Source of the DNA: Deltaproteobacteria bacterium
GTDB taxonomy: Bacteria; Desulfobacterota; Deferrimicrobia; Deferrimicrobiales; Deferrimicrobiaceae
Assembly: GCA_020346465.1 (NCBI GenBank)
Contig: CP070783.1
Span: forward strand, 1,355,319 to 1,416,356
DNA: 61,038 nucleotides
Direction of reading: 5' to 3'
Shown: positions 6,545 to 45,235 of the stretch, piece after piece
Numbering within the stretch: the stretch's first letter is position 1
Layout: each line of letters starts with the position of its first letter
Notes under the pieces: generated by a model
Told to the model about the DNA's origin: nothing
Seen by the model: only the letters and a program-made list of their open reading frames with translations
Database searches by the model: none
Translations under genes and position numbers: made by a program

Positions 6545-7933
6545 TTATGGGCCATGCAACTTTTTCCGCTTGAGCATTTCCAGGAGCGTCGTCCGTTTCA
6601 GCCCGAGAAGGGCCGCCGCCCTGTTCCTGTTCCCGCCGCTGAGAGAGAGGGCTTCCCGGATGAGGCCGTTCTCGAAATCCTCCCTGGCTTTCCGGAGATC
6701 GATCCCTCCGACCCGCAGTTTCTCCGCGGCCTTGCCGCCGGCCCTGTCCTCCCGCGGGATCATCGCCGGCGGCAGGTCTTTCCTCTCGAACCACCCGTCC
6801 CGGGACAGGACGACGAGTCGCTCCACCAGGTTCTCCAGTTCCCTCACGTTTCCGGGCCAGGGGTACCGTTCCAGGAGTTCCATCGCGTCCGGCCGGAACC
6901 CGTGAGCTCTCCTCCCGTCGCCCCGGGGGTATTTGCCAAGAAAATGGTCTGCCAGGATGGGGATGTCCTCGGTCCGTTCCCGCAGGGGGGGGAGGTGGAT
7001 GGGGATCACGTTGAGCCGGAAGTAGAGATCCTGCCGGAAGCGGCCCGCGGAGATCTCCTTTTCCAGATCCTTGTTCGTCGCCGCGATGACACGAACGTCC
7101 ACATCGACCGCCTTCGTTCCCCCCACCGGCGTGAAGGACTGCTCCTGGAGCACCCGGAGAATCTTCGCCTGGAGGGGCGGACTCATCTCCCCGATCTCGT
7201 CCAGGAAGATCGTTCCCCTGTGGGCCTCCTCGAACCTGCCGGTCCTCGCGGTGTGGGCCCCGGTGAAGGCGCCTCGCGTGTGGCCGAAGAGCTCGCTTTC
7301 GAGAAGCTCGCCCGGGATGGCGGAGCAGTTCACGGGGACGAGAATCCGGTCCGCGCGGCTGCTGTTGTAATGGATGGCCCGGGCGATGAGCTCCTTGCCC
7401 GTGCCGCTCTCCCCCAGGAGGAGGATGGTCGAGTCGCTGCCGGCCACCTTCGACACCAGGGAGAGCATTTCCCGGAACGACTCGCTGATCCCGATGATGT
7501 TTTCGAACCGGTAGCGTCCGACGGCCTGTCTCTTGAGGTGGATGTTCTCCTTCTTCACCCCCGTCATCTCGAGCGCCCGGTCCACGAGATGGACGACTTC
7601 CAGCACCTTGAACGGTTTCGTGATGTAGTGGAACGCGCCGAGCTTCATGGCCTGGACGGCGTTCTCCACCGTTCCGTACCCCGTCATCAGGATGACCTCG
7701 CAGTGGACGAGGGTCTTCTTCGCGTGGGAGAGGACCGCGATGCCGTCTCCGCCGGGCATCACGAGGTCCGTGAGGACGACGTCGATGTCGTTCTGGTCGA
7801 TCAGGGCGATCGCCTCGGCGCCGGATCGGGCAGGGTGGACGCGGAGGTCCGGCTGGGAAAAGGCGCTCAGAAGAAGCTCGAGGATGTTTTCGTCGTCTTC
7901 CGCAATAAGGAGGGATTTCCTCATCGGGATCAT
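6545..7933 (-). CDS. sigma-54-dependent response regulator (NtrC/FlrC type)
   Basis: The 462-residue protein has three domains: receiver (1-120, acidic pocket EDD and Asp56 in LTDLVMPGGDG), AAA+ (about 140-375, Walker A GESGTGKE, GAFTGA loop contacting sigma-54, DEIGEM), and C-terminal Fis-type helix-turn-helix (GGNRNRAAALLGLKRTTL). Phosphorylation should trigger ATP-driven opening of sigma-54 promoters. The ATG at 7933 is preferred over an upstream ATG because GGAGGG lies six bases before it. The gene is immediately upstream of the sigma-54-controlled fliA, which suggests a flagellar class-III activator; no cognate kinase is adjacent. An NtrC-like role in another pathway remains possible. 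Confidence 0.9.
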   Translation of the reverse strand: MIPMRKSLLIAEDDENILELLLSAFSQPDLRVHPARSGAEAIALIDQNDIDVVLTDLVMPGGDGIAVLSHAKKTLVHCEVILMTGYGTVENAVQAMKLGAFHYITKPFKVLEVVHLVDRALEMTGVKKENIHLKRQAVGRYRFENIIGISESFREMLSLVSKVAGSDSTILLLGESGTGKELIARAIHYNSSRADRILVPVNCSAIPGELLESELFGHTRGAFTGAHTARTGRFEEAHRGTIFLDEIGEMSPPLQAKILRVLQEQSFTPVGGTKAVDVDVRVIAATNKDLEKEISAGRFRQDLYFRLNVIPIHLPPLRERTEDIPILADHFLGKYPRGDGRRAHGFRPDAMELLERYPWPGNVRELENLVERLVVLSRDGWFERKDLPPAMIPREDRAGGKAAEKLRVGGIDLRKAREDFENGLIREALSLSGGNRNRAAALLGLKRTTLLEMLKRKKLHGP

Positions 7934-24193: not shown

Positions 24194-24919
24194 TCAGGTC
24201 AGGGTGTCGGTCAGGAAATGCTCCCTCACTTTCGGTTCCCAATCAGTACCGTAGAGCGCCCGGGCGATCCCTTGTACGGGAGCGCCTCCGTTCTGGTGCA
24301 CGGGCAGCGTGGTCCCGCCGTCCTGGTAGAGAGGTCCCAGGCCTTCCCCCATCGTGACACGAAGGCCGTGGAGAGTCTCTTCCATCCACCTCCGCGCGAG
24401 GCGTCCCGTGAAGAGATTCGTGCGGTTCGCCGCGAGCCTGTCCGGGCGGACCTTCAGCAGCCACCCCTTTCCGAACGGGTCCTCGTTGACGATTCCCGGA
24501 GACCGCGCAGCCTCTTCGTTCACGGCCACGACCTCGCCGTCAATCGGGGAGAGCATGGGGATGGCATGGGCCCCGACGCGGAGCACCCAGCCCTTCTCGC
24601 CCTGGGCCACCCGTGACCCTACGGGGGGCAGGTCGATGGAATCGACCCTCCCGACGAGTTTCTGGGCGAAGTCGTCCAGTCCGAGGCTTGCTACGCCCTC
24701 AACCCCGGTCTGCACCCATCCGTGTCCCTGGTGGAACTGGACCTCCCGGGGGACCCGGAACCACTCGACGAACTCCGCGGGCCCCCTCTCCGCACCGGTT
24801 TCCTCCGTCCGGAGCGTCAGGTACCGGCAGAAGAAGACGAACGTGGCCAGGAACCCGATGACGATGAGGTACTCGATCCCTTTCGTCGCGTAGATGTCTA
24901 CGAAGCTGAAGCCTTCCAT
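24194..24919 (-). CDS. membrane-anchored GcvH-like (lipoyl-domain-like) protein, third in the redox operon
   Basis: The 241-residue protein has an N-terminal transmembrane helix (about 14-36), then a glycine-cleavage H-protein-like domain (about 60-150: FHQGHGWVQTGVEGVASLGL, DDFAQKLVGRVDSIDLP, SPIDGEVVAVNEE). A tail of about 80 residues follows. Counting back from the conserved SP(I/V)xG turn, the position of the lipoylated lysine is Ala117, so it cannot carry lipoate there. It is the last gene of the operon, and its start lies 22 bases inside the NrfD gene. A scaffold or docking role for the membrane complex is likely; catalysis by the classical glycine-cleavage route is not. Confidence 0.8.
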   Translation of the reverse strand: MEGFSFVDIYATKGIEYLIVIGFLATFVFFCRYLTLRTEETGAERGPAEFVEWFRVPREVQFHQGHGWVQTGVEGVASLGLDDFAQKLVGRVDSIDLPPVGSRVAQGEKGWVLRVGAHAIPMLSPIDGEVVAVNEEAARSPGIVNEDPFGKGWLLKVRPDRLAANRTNLFTGRLARRWMEETLHGLRVTMGEGLGPLYQDGGTTLPVHQNGGAPVQGIARALYGTDWEPKVREHFLTDTLT

Positions 24920-26187
24920 CTCACCACCTCCCCGACGGGGATAATGTCATCCATCGCTTCTTTTTCTTCCGGGTGCTCCTTGAAGACCGGCATCCTGTTG
25001 ATCACCCACCGGAACACCCACAGTTCCATGGAGATGACGGCCAGCGTCACCCAGATCTCGATCCAGGAGGGATAGTACCGGACCGGCGCATACCACTTGA
25101 ACGCGATGACGGATACGTTCAGCCGGTTGAGGACCACGCCGATCGCCGTGAAGAACGACGTGAACTGGACGAGCCGGACGCTTCGTTTCCGGAGCGCGAC
25201 TCCGAACAAAAAGATCGGCAGCACCACGAACCCCAGGATCTCCACGAGGTACCAGTAGCCCATCGGCGTGGCGAGCAGGTCCCAGTGACCGCCGTGGACC
25301 AGCTCGATGACCTTCAGGAACAGGTAGGCGAACAGCGCTCCGATGCACCCCTTGGCGAGGCCGAGCAGGATGTCGTCGTGGGAGGCGCGCAGCCGGTTTC
25401 CGATCTTGTCGTGAAAGACCTTGTGGGTGAAGGTGCTCTCGATGATCACCATCGACAGCCCGGCGAAGATGCTCGACACGAAGAACGCGACCGGGATGTA
25501 GTGCGAATACCAAAGCGGGTGGATCTTGGCGGGCGCCAGAAGAAAGAGCGCGCCCAGTCCGGACTGGTGCAGCGTGGAGAGGGTGATGCCGAAGATCACC
25601 GCCCCGATCGTCATCTTCTCCACGACCCGCCGGGCCTTCTCCCAGTTCAGCCACTCGGCGACGGCCGGGGAGAACTCGAGGAACTCGCAGATCATGTACA
25701 GGAGGAAGTGCCACGCCACCAGGAAGAGGACCGAGCTCAGTCCGAACGAGTTGCCGATGATCGGGTTCACGACGTTCCAGGGGCGCCCCAGGTCGAGGAG
25801 CAGCGCCCCGGCGTAGAACACGTACGCGAGAAAGCCGTTCAGGACCGTCACGCGGACGATGGGCTCGTACTTTTCGAATTTCATGATGTGGACGACGAAG
25901 GTCAGCACGTAGGCGCCTCCCGCGAACGCCACGCCGGTGATCACGTCGAACCCGATCCAGATCCCCCAGGGGTAGTCCTGGGAGAGGTTGGTGACCGCCC
26001 CGAGGCCCTTGTAGAACCGGATCGCGATCAGGGCGATCCCGACAACGATGATCGTGCCGCTGATGATGTTGAAGGGGGTCCAGATCTTTCCCTTCGGCTT
26101 CATCTCGGACGCGAGGAACCGCGCGAATTCGCGGACGTCACGAAGGGCCTTCCGCGGCCTTCCGATGTCGTTATCCTTCCTCTTCAT
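24898..26187 (-). CDS. NrfD/HybB-type integral membrane quinone-interacting subunit
   Basis: This 429-residue polytopic protein has about nine to ten hydrophobic helices and matches the NrfD/PsrC superfamily, closest in appearance to HybB, the membrane subunit of hydrogenase-2-type complexes (WGIWIGFDVITGVAFAGGAYV, then LLLDLGRPWN, STLHQSGLGALFLLAPAK). Such subunits exchange electrons with menaquinone in the membrane and pair with a HybA-like ferredoxin, here the gene directly upstream. It overlaps that gene by 17 bases and the downstream GcvH-like gene by 22. No hydrogenase or molybdopterin catalytic subunit is encoded nearby, so the electron donor or acceptor is unknown. Confidence 0.9.
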   Translation of the reverse strand: MKRKDNDIGRPRKALRDVREFARFLASEMKPKGKIWTPFNIISGTIIVVGIALIAIRFYKGLGAVTNLSQDYPWGIWIGFDVITGVAFAGGAYVLTFVVHIMKFEKYEPIVRVTVLNGFLAYVFYAGALLLDLGRPWNVVNPIIGNSFGLSSVLFLVAWHFLLYMICEFLEFSPAVAEWLNWEKARRVVEKMTIGAVIFGITLSTLHQSGLGALFLLAPAKIHPLWYSHYIPVAFFVSSIFAGLSMVIIESTFTHKVFHDKIGNRLRASHDDILLGLAKGCIGALFAYLFLKVIELVHGGHWDLLATPMGYWYLVEILGFVVLPIFLFGVALRKRSVRLVQFTSFFTAIGVVLNRLNVSVIAFKWYAPVRYYPSWIEIWVTLAVISMELWVFRWVINRMPVFKEHPEEKEAMDDIIPVGEVVRWKASAS

Positions 26188-27058
26188 GGTTGTTCTCCTT
26201 GTTTCTGTGTTCGGCGAGGTAATTCAAGCCGATGAGTATGGACGGCCACAGGACGAACACGAGGGGCACGCCGTACAGGAATCCCGACGTATGTTCCGGG
26301 TAAGGCGTCGTCCCCAGGTCGGTCCGGAAACCCAGCTGTTCGAACGGGACGGCGGAGAGGTACATGGTCCCGCTGCCGCCGACCTCGTGCTCCCCGTAGA
26401 TGTGGTGGACGTACTTGTCGGGGTTCTCGTAGATCCGGGTTCTTGCGATCTCCAGCAGTTCCCGCCTCGTCCCGAAGATCGTGGCGTTCTCGGGACAGGC
26501 ATCCACGCAGGCGGGCCGCTCCCCCGTCTTCAGCCGGTCGTAGCAGAAGACGCACTTCCGGATGTACGGGAGGGCGCTGCCGTACTCGAATTTCGGGATG
26601 TCGTGGGGGCACGCGATCATGCAGTACCGGCATCCCATGCACCGGTCCTTGTTGTAGATGACCGGCCCTTCCTTCGTTTTCTCCATCGCTTTGGTCAGGC
26701 AGGCCGAGGCGCAGGCCGGCTGGCAGCAATGGACGCACTGTTTTCGCACGAAGACGGGGTTGTCCGGGTCCTTCCCGTTCGCGAACCGGTTGAGGACGGT
26801 GTAGGCGCCGGGAGAGGTGTCCCTCTTCGTTTCGAAGACGCTTTCGCTCGAGAAGGGCACCTCGGGCTCCGGCAGCCGGTTCTGCTCGTTGCACGCCTCC
26901 TCGCAGCTCCGGCAGCCGATGCATTTCGTCGTGTCGATCAGCAGCCCGTAGAACTCGACGCTGGCTACGGCCGCCTCCGACCGCCTGGGTGGGCCTGCGA
27001 GCATGGTGCACCCCGTCAGGCCTGCGAGTTTCAGGAAATCCCGTCGATTCACACTCAT
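26171..27058 (-). CDS. Tat-exported four-cluster ferredoxin subunit (HybA-like)
   Basis: The 295-residue protein has a twin-arginine signal (NRRDFLKLAGLTGC; Cys17 may also be a lipidation site). Four 4Fe-4S motifs follow: CIGCRSCEEAC (46-56), CVHCCQPACASAC, CMGCRYCMIAC and CVFCYDR with PACVDAC. A C-terminal hydrophobic helix (GFLYGVPLVFVLWPSILIGL) should anchor it. It would wire electrons on the outer face of the membrane between NrfD/HybB and an unidentified partner. It is followed by the NrfD gene with a 17-base overlap. Neighbouring GcvH-like genes replace the catalytic subunits expected in hydrogenase operons. Confidence 0.9.
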   Translation of the reverse strand: MSVNRRDFLKLAGLTGCTMLAGPPRRSEAAVASVEFYGLLIDTTKCIGCRSCEEACNEQNRLPEPEVPFSSESVFETKRDTSPGAYTVLNRFANGKDPDNPVFVRKQCVHCCQPACASACLTKAMEKTKEGPVIYNKDRCMGCRYCMIACPHDIPKFEYGSALPYIRKCVFCYDRLKTGERPACVDACPENATIFGTRRELLEIARTRIYENPDKYVHHIYGEHEVGGSGTMYLSAVPFEQLGFRTDLGTTPYPEHTSGFLYGVPLVFVLWPSILIGLNYLAEHRNKENNHEEEG

Positions 27059-27104
27059 CGGTTTTCCTCCTGTTTTCTCGGGCGATCCGTTCGCCCCGGA
27101 GTCC

Positions 27105-27791
27105 CTACCGGAAGAACTTCCTGACCAGCAGCTGCAGGAGCTCCCCGTCGATCGTTTCCATGACGCCCTCGATGCAGTGGCCTCCGTCCGGCAGCGTGAC
27201 TCCCACCTCCTGGGGCGTTGCCCTGTGGAGCGTGATGAATTCGAAAAACGTCATCAGCTCCCTTTCGAGCCAGGCCGCGGCGTCCCCGGCGATCCGGAGC
27301 TTCCGGATGTTCTGGGCGATGTTGGTCGGCATCGCGGTGAGCAGCCAGGACGACTGGTACGGGTCTTTCCGGAGCATCCCGGTGTCGGCGTTCACCTCGT
27401 CGTTTGCGGCGCTGACGATCCCGTCGAGCGGGGAGACGAAGTCGATCTTCTTGCTCCCCTGGACCACGGTGAACGCCTTCTCCCCCTGGCGCAGCCGCGT
27501 GCCGGGACGGGGGAGCTCGATCCGGTCGATCCTGCCGATGACCCCCTGCGCGAAGTCGTCGATGCCGATCTGCGCTTCCCCCTTCGGCGTGAGGTGGGCC
27601 CACGTGTGTCCCCCGTGGTAGAAAAGTCCCGCCGGCAGCCGGAACGCGGGCAGCGCAACCGGAACGGGGACGGCCCCGAACGCCGGAACGGCTTCGCCGG
27701 CCCTCTCTTTCGCCCGTTTCCTCCACATCCGGTAGGCCAGTTCGATGAGGAGGAAGGCGGCGACCGTTGCGAGTACGAGAATGAGTACCAT
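27105..27791 (-). CDS. membrane-anchored GcvH-like protein, second in the redox operon
   Basis: The 228-residue protein has an N-terminal transmembrane helix (2-20) and a basic linker. An H-protein-like domain spans about 52-145 (YHGGHTWAHLTPKGEAQIGI, DDFAQGVIGRIDRIELP, SPLDGIVSAANDEV), followed by an extra helical C-terminal region. The lipoyl-lysine position is Ser113, although two lysines follow directly (114, 115). Lipoylation at a shifted lysine cannot be excluded but would break the family register. It lies 13 bp after the soluble GcvH-like gene and 46 bp before the ferredoxin gene. Confidence 0.8.
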   Translation of the reverse strand: MVLILVLATVAAFLLIELAYRMWRKRAKERAGEAVPAFGAVPVPVALPAFRLPAGLFYHGGHTWAHLTPKGEAQIGIDDFAQGVIGRIDRIELPRPGTRLRQGEKAFTVVQGSKKIDFVSPLDGIVSAANDEVNADTGMLRKDPYQSSWLLTAMPTNIAQNIRKLRIAGDAAAWLERELMTFFEFITLHRATPQEVGVTLPDGGHCIEGVMETIDGELLQLLVRKFFR

Positions 27792-27804
27792 GTCCGTTAC
27801 CTCC

Positions 27805-28518
27805 TTATCCCAGGAACAGGGCGACGATCCTGCTCCACTGGGCCTCGTTCAGCCGGCTGCTGATGTCCGTAAGGGCCTCCCCGCCGTCCGTCGCGGTGAT
27901 TCCCAGGTCGCTGCTGAACATCCGGTGCAGCCTTTCCGCCTCCCAGTCGAGCCATTGCCGCGCCACGCCCCCGTGGTACAGCCGCGGGATCCAGTCCCCG
28001 GCAAGGTGCATGGAGAACAGCCACCCCTCTTCGTAGGGGTCGCGGTTGATGAGCCCCGGGTCTTCCACCACTTTCCTGTTGATCTCTCTCACGATGCCGT
28101 CTCCCGGCGACACCATCCTGGCCGTCCTTTTTCCCGAGTGGAGCAAAAAGCAGACGCTGTTCTCCCGCAGGGCGGCGCCTTCCGCGGGGAGGGAGACGCG
28201 GTCGATTCGCCCGACGAGCCGCTGGGTAAAATCGTCGGCTCCCAGCCTTGCCTCGGTCTCGGCTTCATTCCCGGGGGCAATCCACACGTGGCGGGGATGG
28301 AAGTAGTAGTCGGGACGGAGCTGGAACCCCCGCAGGCTTTCCGCTGCGGTTGCGTGTCCCTCGATCTCCCGGAACGCCGAGCAGAGCCGGTAGTTCCCGG
28401 TGTGGCACAATCCTTTGGTCGAGGTCGACCGGTCGAGCGGGATCATCTTCTTGACGGGAAATGCCTTGCAGAACGTCACCGTCGTCATCTCCAGGAACGG
28501 GCATTTTTCATCTGCCAT
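27805..28518 (-). CDS. soluble GcvH-like protein with N-terminal cysteine cluster
   Basis: The 237-residue protein has no membrane helix. The first 50 residues contain Cys6 (CPFLE), Cys17, Cys38 and Cys46, a spacing that could bind a metal or Fe-S cluster. The H-protein-like domain (about 70-160) has HPRHVWIAPGN, DDFTQRLVGRIDRVSLP and SPGDGIVREINRKV. Counting back eight from the conserved Pro gives Lys130, so this is the only one of the four GcvH-like proteins here that keeps a lysine in the lipoyl position, though in the context HSGKR rather than ESVKA. It could be the redox-active lipoyl partner of the complex. Confidence 0.8.
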   Translation of the reverse strand: MADEKCPFLEMTTVTFCKAFPVKKMIPLDRSTSTKGLCHTGNYRLCSAFREIEGHATAAESLRGFQLRPDYYFHPRHVWIAPGNEAETEARLGADDFTQRLVGRIDRVSLPAEGAALRENSVCFLLHSGKRTARMVSPGDGIVREINRKVVEDPGLINRDPYEEGWLFSMHLAGDWIPRLYHGGVARQWLDWEAERLHRMFSSDLGITATDGGEALTDISSRLNEAQWSRIVALFLG

Positions 28519-28550: not shown

Positions 28551-28619
28551 TCATGCCGCCCTGAAACCCATGTATGCCCATGCGACGAGGAATACGAATG
28601 CGAGAACGATGTATCCCAT
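28551..28619 (-). CDS. 22-residue single-helix membrane peptide, first gene of the redox operon
   Basis: The small open frame begins ATG GGA TAC ATC behind a strong GAGGAGGTGGAG ribosome site. It encodes a peptide of 22 residues (MGYIVLAFVFLVAW at its start, ending MGFRAA) that is almost entirely one transmembrane helix with a C-terminal Arg. It sits 33 bp before the soluble GcvH-like gene and 22 bases after the predicted sigma-54 start site. The size and position resemble accessory peptides of respiratory complexes such as CydX or CcoQ-like subunits; the equivalence is inference. Confidence 0.65.
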   Translation of the reverse strand: MGYIVLAFVFLVAWAYMGFRAA

Positions 28620-28652
28620 TTTCTCCACCTCCTCTCTCTGTCCCCGTTCATC

Positions 28653-28667
28653 GCAACGAACGTGCCG
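28653..28667 (-). promoter_or_regulatory. sigma-54 promoter of the redox operon
   Basis: On the minus strand CGGCACG-TTCG-TTGC gives GG and GC separated by the required ten bases; it matches the -24/-12 consensus except at the outermost base. Transcription would start near 28641, 22 bases before the membrane-peptide gene. A sigma-54-dependent regulator is encoded immediately upstream. Confidence 0.78.
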
Positions 28668-28853: not shown

Positions 28854-30218
<1,365 letters not shown>

Positions 30219-30220
30219 GG

Positions 30221-30742
30221 TCACACCCTCCACGGTTCGGTTTTCGCATACAGGGCGGAGTCGCAGCTGTCGCAATAGGTGATCCGTTTCCGGTCGACGT
30301 CCCTCACGGTGTTGGACAGATACATCACGCACTCCCGGTCGGGGCAGTGAATGAGCCCGAAATTGTGCCCCAGCTCGTGCAGGGCCTCCTTGCACAGGCG
30401 CTCGAACAGGATCCCGTCGTCGGGGGAGAGCCCGTGGAATTCCTGCCGGAGCCTCGCGATCGAGACGATCGACGCCACACCCCCCAGCTGGGCCTCCCCG
30501 AAGACGAAGGTCAGGATCGGGATGCACATGTCCTTGTCGATGATCCCGACGATCTTGATCGCGTCGGCCGGGGCTTCCCGAAGGATCTCCCGGAGGATCC
30601 GGGTGGAGTTGTACTGGTTCCTGTTCCTCTCGTAGCTCCCCTCCGGCACCGGCATATTCCGGGAGATCCTCACCGGGAGGGAGAGGTAGTCCCGCAAGCG
30701 GTCCTGGAGCTTCCGGAGCATGGCGTCGGGGATCACTCCCAC
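30221..30742 (-). CDS. archaemetzincin-type zinc metalloprotease inside a two-component operon
   Basis: With the GTG at 30742 the protein is 173 residues. The metal site is complete: HELGHNFGLIH (122-132) followed by CPDREC with Met140, then CDSC (157-160), the archaemetzincin signature with its second zinc-binding cysteine set. Family members are soluble metalloproteases of unknown substrate. Homology appears to start earlier: the frame continues upstream through AIYIRPVG, the expected first strand, back to the kinase stop (30787-30785) in the same frame. A non-standard start such as ATC at 30769 is therefore likely. It lies between kinase and regulator genes, so a role in processing one of them or a redox partner is a reasonable guess. 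Confidence 0.85.
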   Translation of the reverse strand: MGVIPDAMLRKLQDRLRDYLSLPVRISRNMPVPEGSYERNRNQYNSTRILREILREAPADAIKIVGIIDKDMCIPILTFVFGEAQLGGVASIVSIARLRQEFHGLSPDDGILFERLCKEALHELGHNFGLIHCPDRECVMYLSNTVRDVDRKRITYCDSCDSALYAKTEPWRV

Positions 30743-30784: not shown

Positions 30785-32392
30785 TCATCCCGCCGGAAGG
30801 GTGATGAGCATCTCCGTCCCCTCCCCGGGGCTGCTCTTGACGTCGATCGTTCCATCATGCCTTGTGATGATCCCGTAGACGACGGCAAGGCCCAGGCCCG
30901 TCCCCTTCTCCTTGGTGGTGTAAAACGGTTCAAACAGGTGGGGCATATCCTCGGGGGGGATCCCGGGGCCGTTGTCGGCGAACGCGAACATCACCCTGTT
31001 CTGGATCCTGTCGTGCCAGGAGCGGATCGTGAGGGTCCCCCCGGATTCGGGGACCATGGCTTCGCACGCGTTGATGATGATATTGATGAACACCTGCTTC
31101 ATCTGCGAGGGGTCCGCCGGGATGTCCGGGAGGGGTTTCATGGTTTTCTTCACCTCGATGTCCGCGAGGGCCAGCTTGTTCCGGACGATGTCGAGCGATT
31201 CGTCCACGAGGGAGTTCAGGTTGACCACCTTTCTGACCAGTTCCTTGGGGCGCGTGAAATCGAGCAGGTTCTGGACGATCGCGCTCGTCCTCTGGACCTC
31301 CCTGCGCATGGTGGAGAGATACTCCCGGAATTTCTCCACGTCGGGGGGGGCGCTATTCCCCTCCTCGATCTTCCGTTCCATGAGCTTGACGTAGGTGAAG
31401 ACCCCCGTCAGCGGGTTGTTGATCTCGTGCGCCACCGTTGCCGCGATCTTCCCCAACGCGGCCAGTTTCTCGGAATGCATCAGCTGGAACTGGGTGTCCT
31501 TGAGCTCCTTCGTCCGGTCCTCGACCTTCTGCTCCAGGGTCCGGATCCATTCCCGGATCTCGTCGTTCGCCTTTCGCAGGCTTTCCGTCATGTTGTTGAA
31601 CGAACGCGCGAGGTAGCCCATCTCGTCGTCCGAATCGATGGGAATGACATGGGTCAAATCCCCATTCCCCACGCGTTTGGTCCCGACGACGAGCTGCCTG
31701 ATCGGGTTCCCTACGACGAACATCAGGGCCAGGACCGCGATGGTCGATATCGAGGCGATCGACAGGATGTTGAAGAGGATGACTTGCCGGCGGAGGGATT
31801 GCATCTCGGCGTCCACAGGGGCCAGCGACATCGTGATGTCGATGACGCCGAGGACTTTCTGGGACTGAGGGTGGGCATGGCACGCCGCAGAAAAGCAGTT
31901 CGGCTCGTTGTACAGCGGGTTGATCATGCCGAGGACCCGGTATCCCTTCCCGGAAGAAAAGATCCGGTTTCTCGAGGAGATCGTGAGGTGCTCGAGGGGG
32001 GCTTTTTCCGCATGGCACGCGTAGCAGGCCTCCGCCTTCTTGTCCACCATGGTTCCCCGCTCTCTCTCCAGGCTCGAGAAAAGGATCGTGCCGTCGCTTC
32101 CGTAGATCCGGACTTTTTCGATCCCTTCCTGCCTTCCGATGGACCTCATGATGTGGTACGCGTTCTCCTTGAGGTTCTTGAGCATGTCGAACTGGATCGA
32201 TGTCTTGATGGTTTCGCTCAGCAGGCTGGCGTTCTTCACGATGGTTGCATCGAGATGCTTTTCCTGAATGTCCAGATGTATATAGGTGAAGAATCCGTTG
32301 ACCGCCATCGTGGTGAGGGCAACGGACAGGATGATCTTGAACTGGATGGTCCTGTGCCACCGTACGCTTTTTTTCAACTGTCTTTCGGGCAT
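30785..32392 (-). CDS. membrane histidine kinase with c-type heme motifs in the sensor domain
   Basis: The 535-residue protein has transmembrane helices at about 18-36 and 205-227. The periplasmic loop between them carries CYACH (123-127) and CFSAACH (166-172), a CxxCH and a Cx4CH heme-attachment motif, so the sensor probably binds two covalent hemes. Then come a HAMP-like segment, a coiled coil, the DHp helix with His322 (AHEINNPLTG) and the HATPase domain (NACEAM, DNGPGIP, GTGLGL). It should report redox state or a heme ligand by phosphorylating the regulator at 28854. It heads the kinase-archaemetzincin-regulator operon. Confidence 0.92.
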   Translation of the reverse strand: MPERQLKKSVRWHRTIQFKIILSVALTTMAVNGFFTYIHLDIQEKHLDATIVKNASLLSETIKTSIQFDMLKNLKENAYHIMRSIGRQEGIEKVRIYGSDGTILFSSLERERGTMVDKKAEACYACHAEKAPLEHLTISSRNRIFSSGKGYRVLGMINPLYNEPNCFSAACHAHPQSQKVLGVIDITMSLAPVDAEMQSLRRQVILFNILSIASISTIAVLALMFVVGNPIRQLVVGTKRVGNGDLTHVIPIDSDDEMGYLARSFNNMTESLRKANDEIREWIRTLEQKVEDRTKELKDTQFQLMHSEKLAALGKIAATVAHEINNPLTGVFTYVKLMERKIEEGNSAPPDVEKFREYLSTMRREVQRTSAIVQNLLDFTRPKELVRKVVNLNSLVDESLDIVRNKLALADIEVKKTMKPLPDIPADPSQMKQVFINIIINACEAMVPESGGTLTIRSWHDRIQNRVMFAFADNGPGIPPEDMPHLFEPFYTTKEKGTGLGLAVVYGIITRHDGTIDVKSSPGEGTEMLITLPAG

Positions 32393-44884: not shown

Positions 44885-45235
44885 GTGTGGGCGCGGCCGG
44901 AGAGCGACGGGGCAGTCCACGTCGGGTTCACCCACGTTCCGTGTTCCTACCTCGGGGATGTCGTGTTCGTCGAACTCCCTCCGCCCGGGACCGAGGTGCG
45001 GGCGGGAGAGCCGATCGGGCTGGTCGAGTCGTCGGCCGCGGTCTGCGAGATCGTCGCCCCCGTGTCGGGAATCGTTTCGGAGGTCAACCCCGCTGTGGAA
45101 GGGGCCCCCGAGACGATCACCGTTGACCCGTTCGAAGGGGGGTGGCTGCTGGCCATCCGCCCGTCGGATCCCGCGGAGGTGGAAGCCCTCCTTAGCGTCG
45201 AGGAGTACGACCGGTTTTTCCCTTCCGAGGAGTAG
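44885..45235 (+). CDS. GcvH-like protein lacking the lipoyl lysine
   Basis: From GTG 44885 this is 116 residues of a glycine-cleavage H-protein-like fold: VGFTHVPCSYLGDVVFVELP, GTEVRAGEPIGLVESSAAVC and APVSGIVSEVNPAVEG, ending DRFFPSEE. The canonical ESVKA lipoylation motif reads ESSAA (Ala51 in place of Lys), so it cannot shuttle aminomethyl groups. Homology extends upstream of the GTG (PADRRYARTHVW in frame), back to the folD stop in the same frame. The only plausible upstream start is CTG 44846, so the true N-terminus is uncertain. It may function in lipoate metabolism or as a scaffold; the genes for glycine decarboxylase are not here. Confidence 0.75.
   Translation: MWARPESDGAVHVGFTHVPCSYLGDVVFVELPPPGTEVRAGEPIGLVESSAAVCEIVAPVSGIVSEVNPAVEGAPETITVDPFEGGWLLAIRPSDPAEVEALLSVEEYDRFFPSEE

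Follow-up and report, generated by a model that had tools for sequence, protein, structure and literature searches.

Glycine cleavage H-fold proteins without a conserved lipoyl lysine, encoded with HmcBC-type electron-transfer genes in several bacterial phyla

Three proteins with the fold of GcvH, the H protein of the glycine cleavage system, are encoded in a gene cluster on the minus strand of a 61,038-nucleotide stretch of DNA (termed the window; positions 1,355,319 to 1,416,356 of contig CP070783.1, assembly GCA_020346465.1) from a deltaproteobacterium of the Deferrimicrobiaceae. The proteins, designated G1, G2 and G3, belong to families without a conserved lipoyl lysine, and their genes are found beside genes for HmcB-like and HmcC-like proteins in bacteria of different phyla. 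The favored interpretation, to which a probability of about 0.55 is assigned, is that G1, G2 and G3 are non-lipoylated GcvH-fold descendants that serve as non-covalent, cytoplasmic-side subunits of an HmcBC-type quinone-linked membrane electron-transfer complex. This suggests that the fold of a lipoic acid carrier has been reused as a building or signaling part. In routine annotation, a GCV_H domain is called a glycine cleavage H protein and taken as a sign of glycine cleavage or lipoate use. The module described here, a large and stable lysine-less set in several phyla, links the fold to an NrfD-type electron-transfer unit and a putative heme-sensing sigma-54 circuit. It corrects both this annotation and the metabolic inference drawn from it, and it makes the possible change of a carrier domain into a structural or signaling part open to test.

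GcvH fold and the lipoyl-lysine position

G1 (positions 24194–24919 of the window, minus strand as with all genes of the cluster; 241 amino acids) joins an HmcD-like transmembrane helix to a GcvH-fold domain and a C-terminal helical segment. G2 (27105–27791, 228 amino acids) is membrane anchored by one N-terminal transmembrane helix, and G3 (27805–28518, 237 amino acids) is soluble and displays a four-cysteine N-terminal segment and a C-terminal helical segment. All three are well above the Pfam cut-off for GCV_H, with E values of 4.1e-25 for G1, 1.5e-16 for G2 and 1.6e-19 for G3, but their scores of 81.3, 60.4 and 59.6 bits are below the curated GcvH equivalog cut-off of 115.85. The nearest solved fold to AlphaFold2 models of G1 and G3 is GcvH, with TM scores, normalized by target, of up to 0.93 (G1) and 0.91 (G3); model confidence is high within this domain. 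The GcvH fold of G2 is assigned from the sequence profile.

Counted from the conserved SPxDG turn, the lipoyl-lysine position is occupied by Lys130 in G3 (codon 28129–28131), Ser113 in G2 (27453–27455) and Ala117 in G1 (24569–24571), as a preliminary description of this DNA had proposed. In phmmer alignments of G3 with solved H proteins, Lys130 falls on the lysine of the ESVK motif; when the G1-type profile is aligned with Escherichia coli GcvH, the tip serine or alanine falls on the same lysine, and in both cases the hairpin is free of gaps. In the models, too, Lys130 and Ala117 are at the tip of the hairpin: residues 129–130 of G3 form the turn between strands 122–128 and 131–136, and residues 116–117 of G1 the turn between strands 109–115 and 118–124. 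The placement of Ser113 comes from sequence alignment. A one-residue shift or gap that would restore a lysine at the tip is ruled out by the QGE-to-SP spacing, which is that of canonical GcvH, by the ungapped alignments and by the interchange of lysine and arginine at the next residue (tip+1).

Conservation of the lysine

GcvH-like proteins were gathered from 40 loci of related genomes and from 80 named loci, with 20 short GcvH-type proteins as controls. Lysine is present at the tip in only 6 of 94 module proteins from the related genomes and 8 of 180 from the named loci; the same column holds lysine in 20 of 21 short canonical GcvH-type proteins of the same genomes. In a tree built with the lipoyl-lysine column removed, canonical and module proteins are split with a Shimodaira–Hasegawa-like approximate likelihood ratio test (SH-aLRT) value of 99, and lysine is found in 6/93 module rows versus 20/22 ordinary GcvH-type rows. 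The six lysines in the module require six separate changes on the tree, and thus none represents an inherited attachment site. G3, G2 and G1 form stable clades (SH-aLRT 100, 98 and 98, respectively), a grouping that the preliminary description had raised as a question. Because lysine is rare in the module and the clades are well supported and apart from true GcvH, all three types are probably non-lipoylated as families.

That G2 and G1 lack the lipoyl lysine had been noted previously and is borne out, as both reside in whole clades without it. The further proposal that G3 is the one active carrier finds no support. Within the G3 clade, Lys130 is limited to the window species and its nearest sister species (94% identical), apart from one isolated lysine in another family of the class. 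Orthologues of 74–82% identity display aspartate or asparagine at the tip (D, D, D and N in the next relatives), the remaining orthologues have Q, R, N, D, A, G, P or E, and the window G3 groups with aspartate-bearing siblings on the tree. Lys130 as a conserved attachment site is therefore ruled out by the orthologue alignment and the tree. Nothing found points to the inhibitory role that had been suggested for G1 or G2. Most module proteins have a basic residue (K, R or H) at tip+1, so that what is conserved at the hairpin tip is charge rather than a site of attachment.

Lipoate and glycine cleavage in the host cell

The host genome is a single contig of 2.32 Mb. LipA, LipB and an E2 protein are encoded side by side elsewhere in the genome, which rules out loss of lipoate by the organism; a PF03099 search of the genome matched only BirA and missed LipB. 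A separate canonical GcvH with an ESQK motif adjoins a homocysteine methyltransferase/MTHFR gene. With these genes present, lipoylation is available to the cell and the loss of the lysine is specific to the module proteins. No match to GDC-P, the domain of GcvP, was found in the genome by a search that was positive in 10 of 14 controls, and this, together with the separate canonical GcvH, rules out G1, G2 and G3 as glycine cleavage H proteins. The canonical GcvH, present without a detectable GDC-P, may itself serve something other than glycine cleavage.

The gene cluster and its linkage across phyla

The order of the minus-strand cluster is histidine kinase, archaemetzincin, NtrC-type regulator, sigma-54-like promoter, a small open reading frame with a single predicted helix, G3, G2, HmcB, HmcC and G1. 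The HmcB/HybA-like protein (26171–27058) is a 4Fe-4S protein with a twin-arginine translocation (Tat) signal and a hydrophobic C-terminal tail, and the HmcC/HybB-like protein (24898–26187) is an integral membrane quinone-type subunit of the NrfD family (Pfam NrfD). Their best NCBIfam matches are HmcB (NF045715, 361.8 bits) and HmcC (NF045714, 429.7 bits), yet these are under the equivalog cut-offs of 420 and 550, respectively. The sensor histidine kinase (30785–32392; HAMP, HisKA and HATPase_c domains in Pfam) has two c-heme-type motifs, CYACH and CFSAACH, in its predicted periplasmic part. The archaemetzincin (M54; 30221–30742) is assigned by Pfam, by an intact HEXXHXXGXXHCX4C...CXXC site and by a score of 169.5 bits against a cut-off of 145 (NF033823). 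The NtrC/AtoC-type sigma-54 response regulator (28854–30224; Pfam and NCBIfam) is separated from G3 by a gap of 335 bases.

The 80 named loci were found with G1 as the query, and counts from them represent linkage to G1; many contigs end inside the cluster. HmcB and HmcC together are found in 73 of these loci, the regulator in 60, the kinase in 58, M54 in 50 and all five partner genes in 46. Most loci have two or three GcvH-like genes, and G1 is usually directly beside HmcC. At least two CX2-4CH motifs are present in 55 of 60 kinase homologues from the named loci and in 21 of 28 from the phylum loci, and the archaemetzincin motif is intact in 51/51 and 28/30 homologues, respectively. Record titles include Deltaproteobacteria, Syntrophales-type groups, Gemmatimonadota, Bacteroidota, Chlorobiota, Calditrichota, Krumholzibacteria, Acidobacteria, Neomarinimicrobiota and Hydrogenedentota, although the loci are mostly from metagenome-assembled genomes (MAGs) and single phylum assignments may be wrong. 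A plasmid search with HmcC returned only distant HybB-type matches. Searches of a library of open-access papers turned up none on the module, which is no proof that it has gone undescribed.

A putative membrane complex and its control

In the proposed complex, HmcB would carry its iron-sulfur clusters outside, as predicted from the Tat signal, and HmcC would be the quinone-linked membrane subunit. G1, through its HmcD-like anchor, and G2, through its own anchor, would keep their GcvH domains at the inner membrane face. The anchor of G1 resembles HmcD by a weak match to the HmcD model (E = 0.015) and matches an HmcD-like open reading frame of a second HmcBC operon of the genome (E = 1e-4). The transmembrane helix of G2 is followed by RMWRKRAKER, and its C terminus is predicted to be inside. 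A cytoplasmic location of the GcvH domains of G1 and G2 is thus predicted by the positive-inside rule, and this prediction, with the Tat signal on HmcB, favors the subunit model. The GcvH fold, the family-wide absence of the lysine in a cell that makes lipoate, the linkage to HmcB and HmcC, the position and anchor of G1 and the promoter-like site also speak for it. The soluble G3 might contribute its four-cysteine segment, possibly a metal or Fe-S site: C6, C17, C38 and C46 are invariant in 19 sequences, and residues 1–50 (28369–28518), which hold them, have no Pfam match. The hairpin tip, where a basic residue comes after a small or polar one, is probably a docking surface.

The second HmcBC operon (L182, G000:C1:1199500-1213500) encodes multiheme cytochromes, a cytochrome b and another two-component pair, and contains no GcvH-like gene.

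A sigma-54 -24/-12 promoter-like site, CGGCACGTTCGTTGCG, is found at 28652–28667. A site of this type is present 139–233 nucleotides upstream of G3 in 18/18 orthologous operons, and its score is reached by at most 5 of 200 shuffles in 16 of the 18. An NtrC-type regulator with such a site upstream of the target genes is the arrangement of a sigma-54 two-component regulon at the sequence level. Between the site and G3 is an open reading frame of 22 amino acids with a single predicted helix, MGYIVLAFVFLVAWAYMGFRAA (28551–28619), that is preceded by a GGAGG-like site. Small hydrophobic open reading frames, mostly of 22–35 codons, occupy this place in 18/18 leaders as judged by eye; among the five closest genus or family sequences, differences at the three codon positions number 60/39/75, with second positions the least variable. 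It is hypothesized that the c-heme-type kinase senses the periplasmic redox state and signals to the NtrC-type regulator, which would switch on the sigma-54 promoter and give a transcript from the small open reading frame through G3, G2, HmcB and HmcC to G1.

Alternative explanations

The preliminary description portrayed G3 as an active lipoyl carrier through Lys130, with G1 and G2 as structural or inhibitory paralogues. In this species Lys130 does occupy the very tip of the hairpin, and lipoate is made by the cell, but this model is strongly disfavored, as all but one of the G3 orthologues beyond the sister species have another residue at the position, the window G3 belongs with its aspartate-bearing siblings, and the tip context is HSGKR rather than ESxK. 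Scarcely more credible is a model in which an unusual ligase attaches lipoate or another acyl group to a shifted lysine (tip+1, or Lys114/115 in G2). Lysine does occupy tip+1 in 80/180 module proteins of the named loci and 30/94 of the related genomes, the position is basic in most, and many Bacteroidota members display the motif GK. Arginine, however, is nearly as frequent there as lysine and often replaces it (44/180 and 33/94), and there is no lysine from tip-1 to tip+2 in 85/180 and 49/94 proteins, about half of the set; conservation of shifted lysines, which the preliminary description had considered, was not found. The residue at tip+1 is histidine in the window G1 and arginine in the window G3, and no ligase is recognized among the module genes. 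In an E2 lipoyl domain, movement of the lysine by one place reportedly abolished lipoylation.

The main rival, a possibility that is less probable than the subunit model but deserves attention, is that the GcvH-like proteins are signaling adaptors and not parts of a respiratory enzyme, with HmcBC as a quinone or redox sensor whose state is relayed to the kinase/NtrC pair or the archaemetzincin. Several observations weigh against the subunit model or for this one. At L063, L072, L074 and L075, GcvH-like genes are found beside the kinase, regulator and M54 genes without HmcBC, and thus HmcBC is not an obligatory partner; HdrA/FlpD-like proteins are encoded at some loci that lack it (L063, L071 and L074). 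The linkage with kinase, regulator and M54 is stable even there. In Bacteroidetes MAGs, receiver domains are fused to lysine-less GcvH domains beside HmcBC (L107:3-788 and 828-2033; L153:5724-6545 and 6587-7786), which points to signaling. No catalytic subunit or multiheme cytochrome is present among the open reading frames of the window cluster, and the topology of the subunit model is drawn from the positive-inside rule only. On the other side, the kinase has a c-heme-type sensor of its own, and the simplest target of the regulator is the operon itself, as the sigma-54-like site is directly upstream of it. More speculative, and somewhat less likely again, is a redox-sensing device conserved across phyla, in which the GcvH fold acts as a relay without a covalent cofactor: HmcBC would read the redox state of the quinone or the periplasm, which the membrane-tethered GcvH domains would pass to the c-heme kinase/NtrC/archaemetzincin pathway, with the one-helix small protein as an extra subunit.

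Comparison with known systems

The module proteins share with GcvH (PF01597; TIGR00527) the fold, the SPxDG turn, an equal hairpin length and significant profile matches. They differ in the lack of a conserved lipoyl lysine, an extra transmembrane or cysteine-rich N terminus, a C-terminal helical segment, scores under the GcvH equivalog cut-off and a host genome without detectable GcvP. Two curated side families, GcvH-related protein (NF045810) and not_gcvH (TIGR03077), are matched weakly and far under cut-off. The LbpA protein of the sHdr sulfur-oxidation system (PMC6067878) is similar in that a GcvH-like protein has, by gene linkage, been recruited into a redox system. The lipoyl lysine of LbpA is strictly conserved (PMC6067878) and LbpA has specific ligases, whereas the module has neither a conserved lysine nor a recognized ligase among its genes.

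Among known complexes, those closest to the electron-transfer unit are HmcABCDEF and hydrogenase-2 HybAB. No curated families are closer to the electron-transfer pair than HmcB and HmcC, and the G1 anchor resembles HmcD. Unlike these complexes, the cluster lacks the multiheme cytochrome HmcA, HmcE, the CCG protein HmcF and hydrogenase subunits, its scores are under the equivalog cut-offs, and, in contrast to the Hmc complex, its HmcD-like anchor is fused to a GcvH domain.

Other GcvH-domain arrangements

GcvH domains are also found in larger fusions. A 988-amino-acid protein at L071:4136-7102 combines Fe-S, FlpD and molybdopterin-binding-type domains with a GcvH domain. In Bacteroidota, a PBP_like_2-type domain is fused with the GcvH domain that is encoded next to HmcB (L160:5062-6753 and L168:6159-7823); L168 is a locus of Sunxiuqinia elliptica, which is in culture.

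A fourth GcvH of the window (44885–45235, plus strand) stands alone directly after folD and has ESSA instead of ESxK. The folD-linked relatives that are readable in the family display S, A or Y at the position (ESSSA, ESSYV). By its sequences, the folD-linked GcvH is a second, separate lysine-less group.

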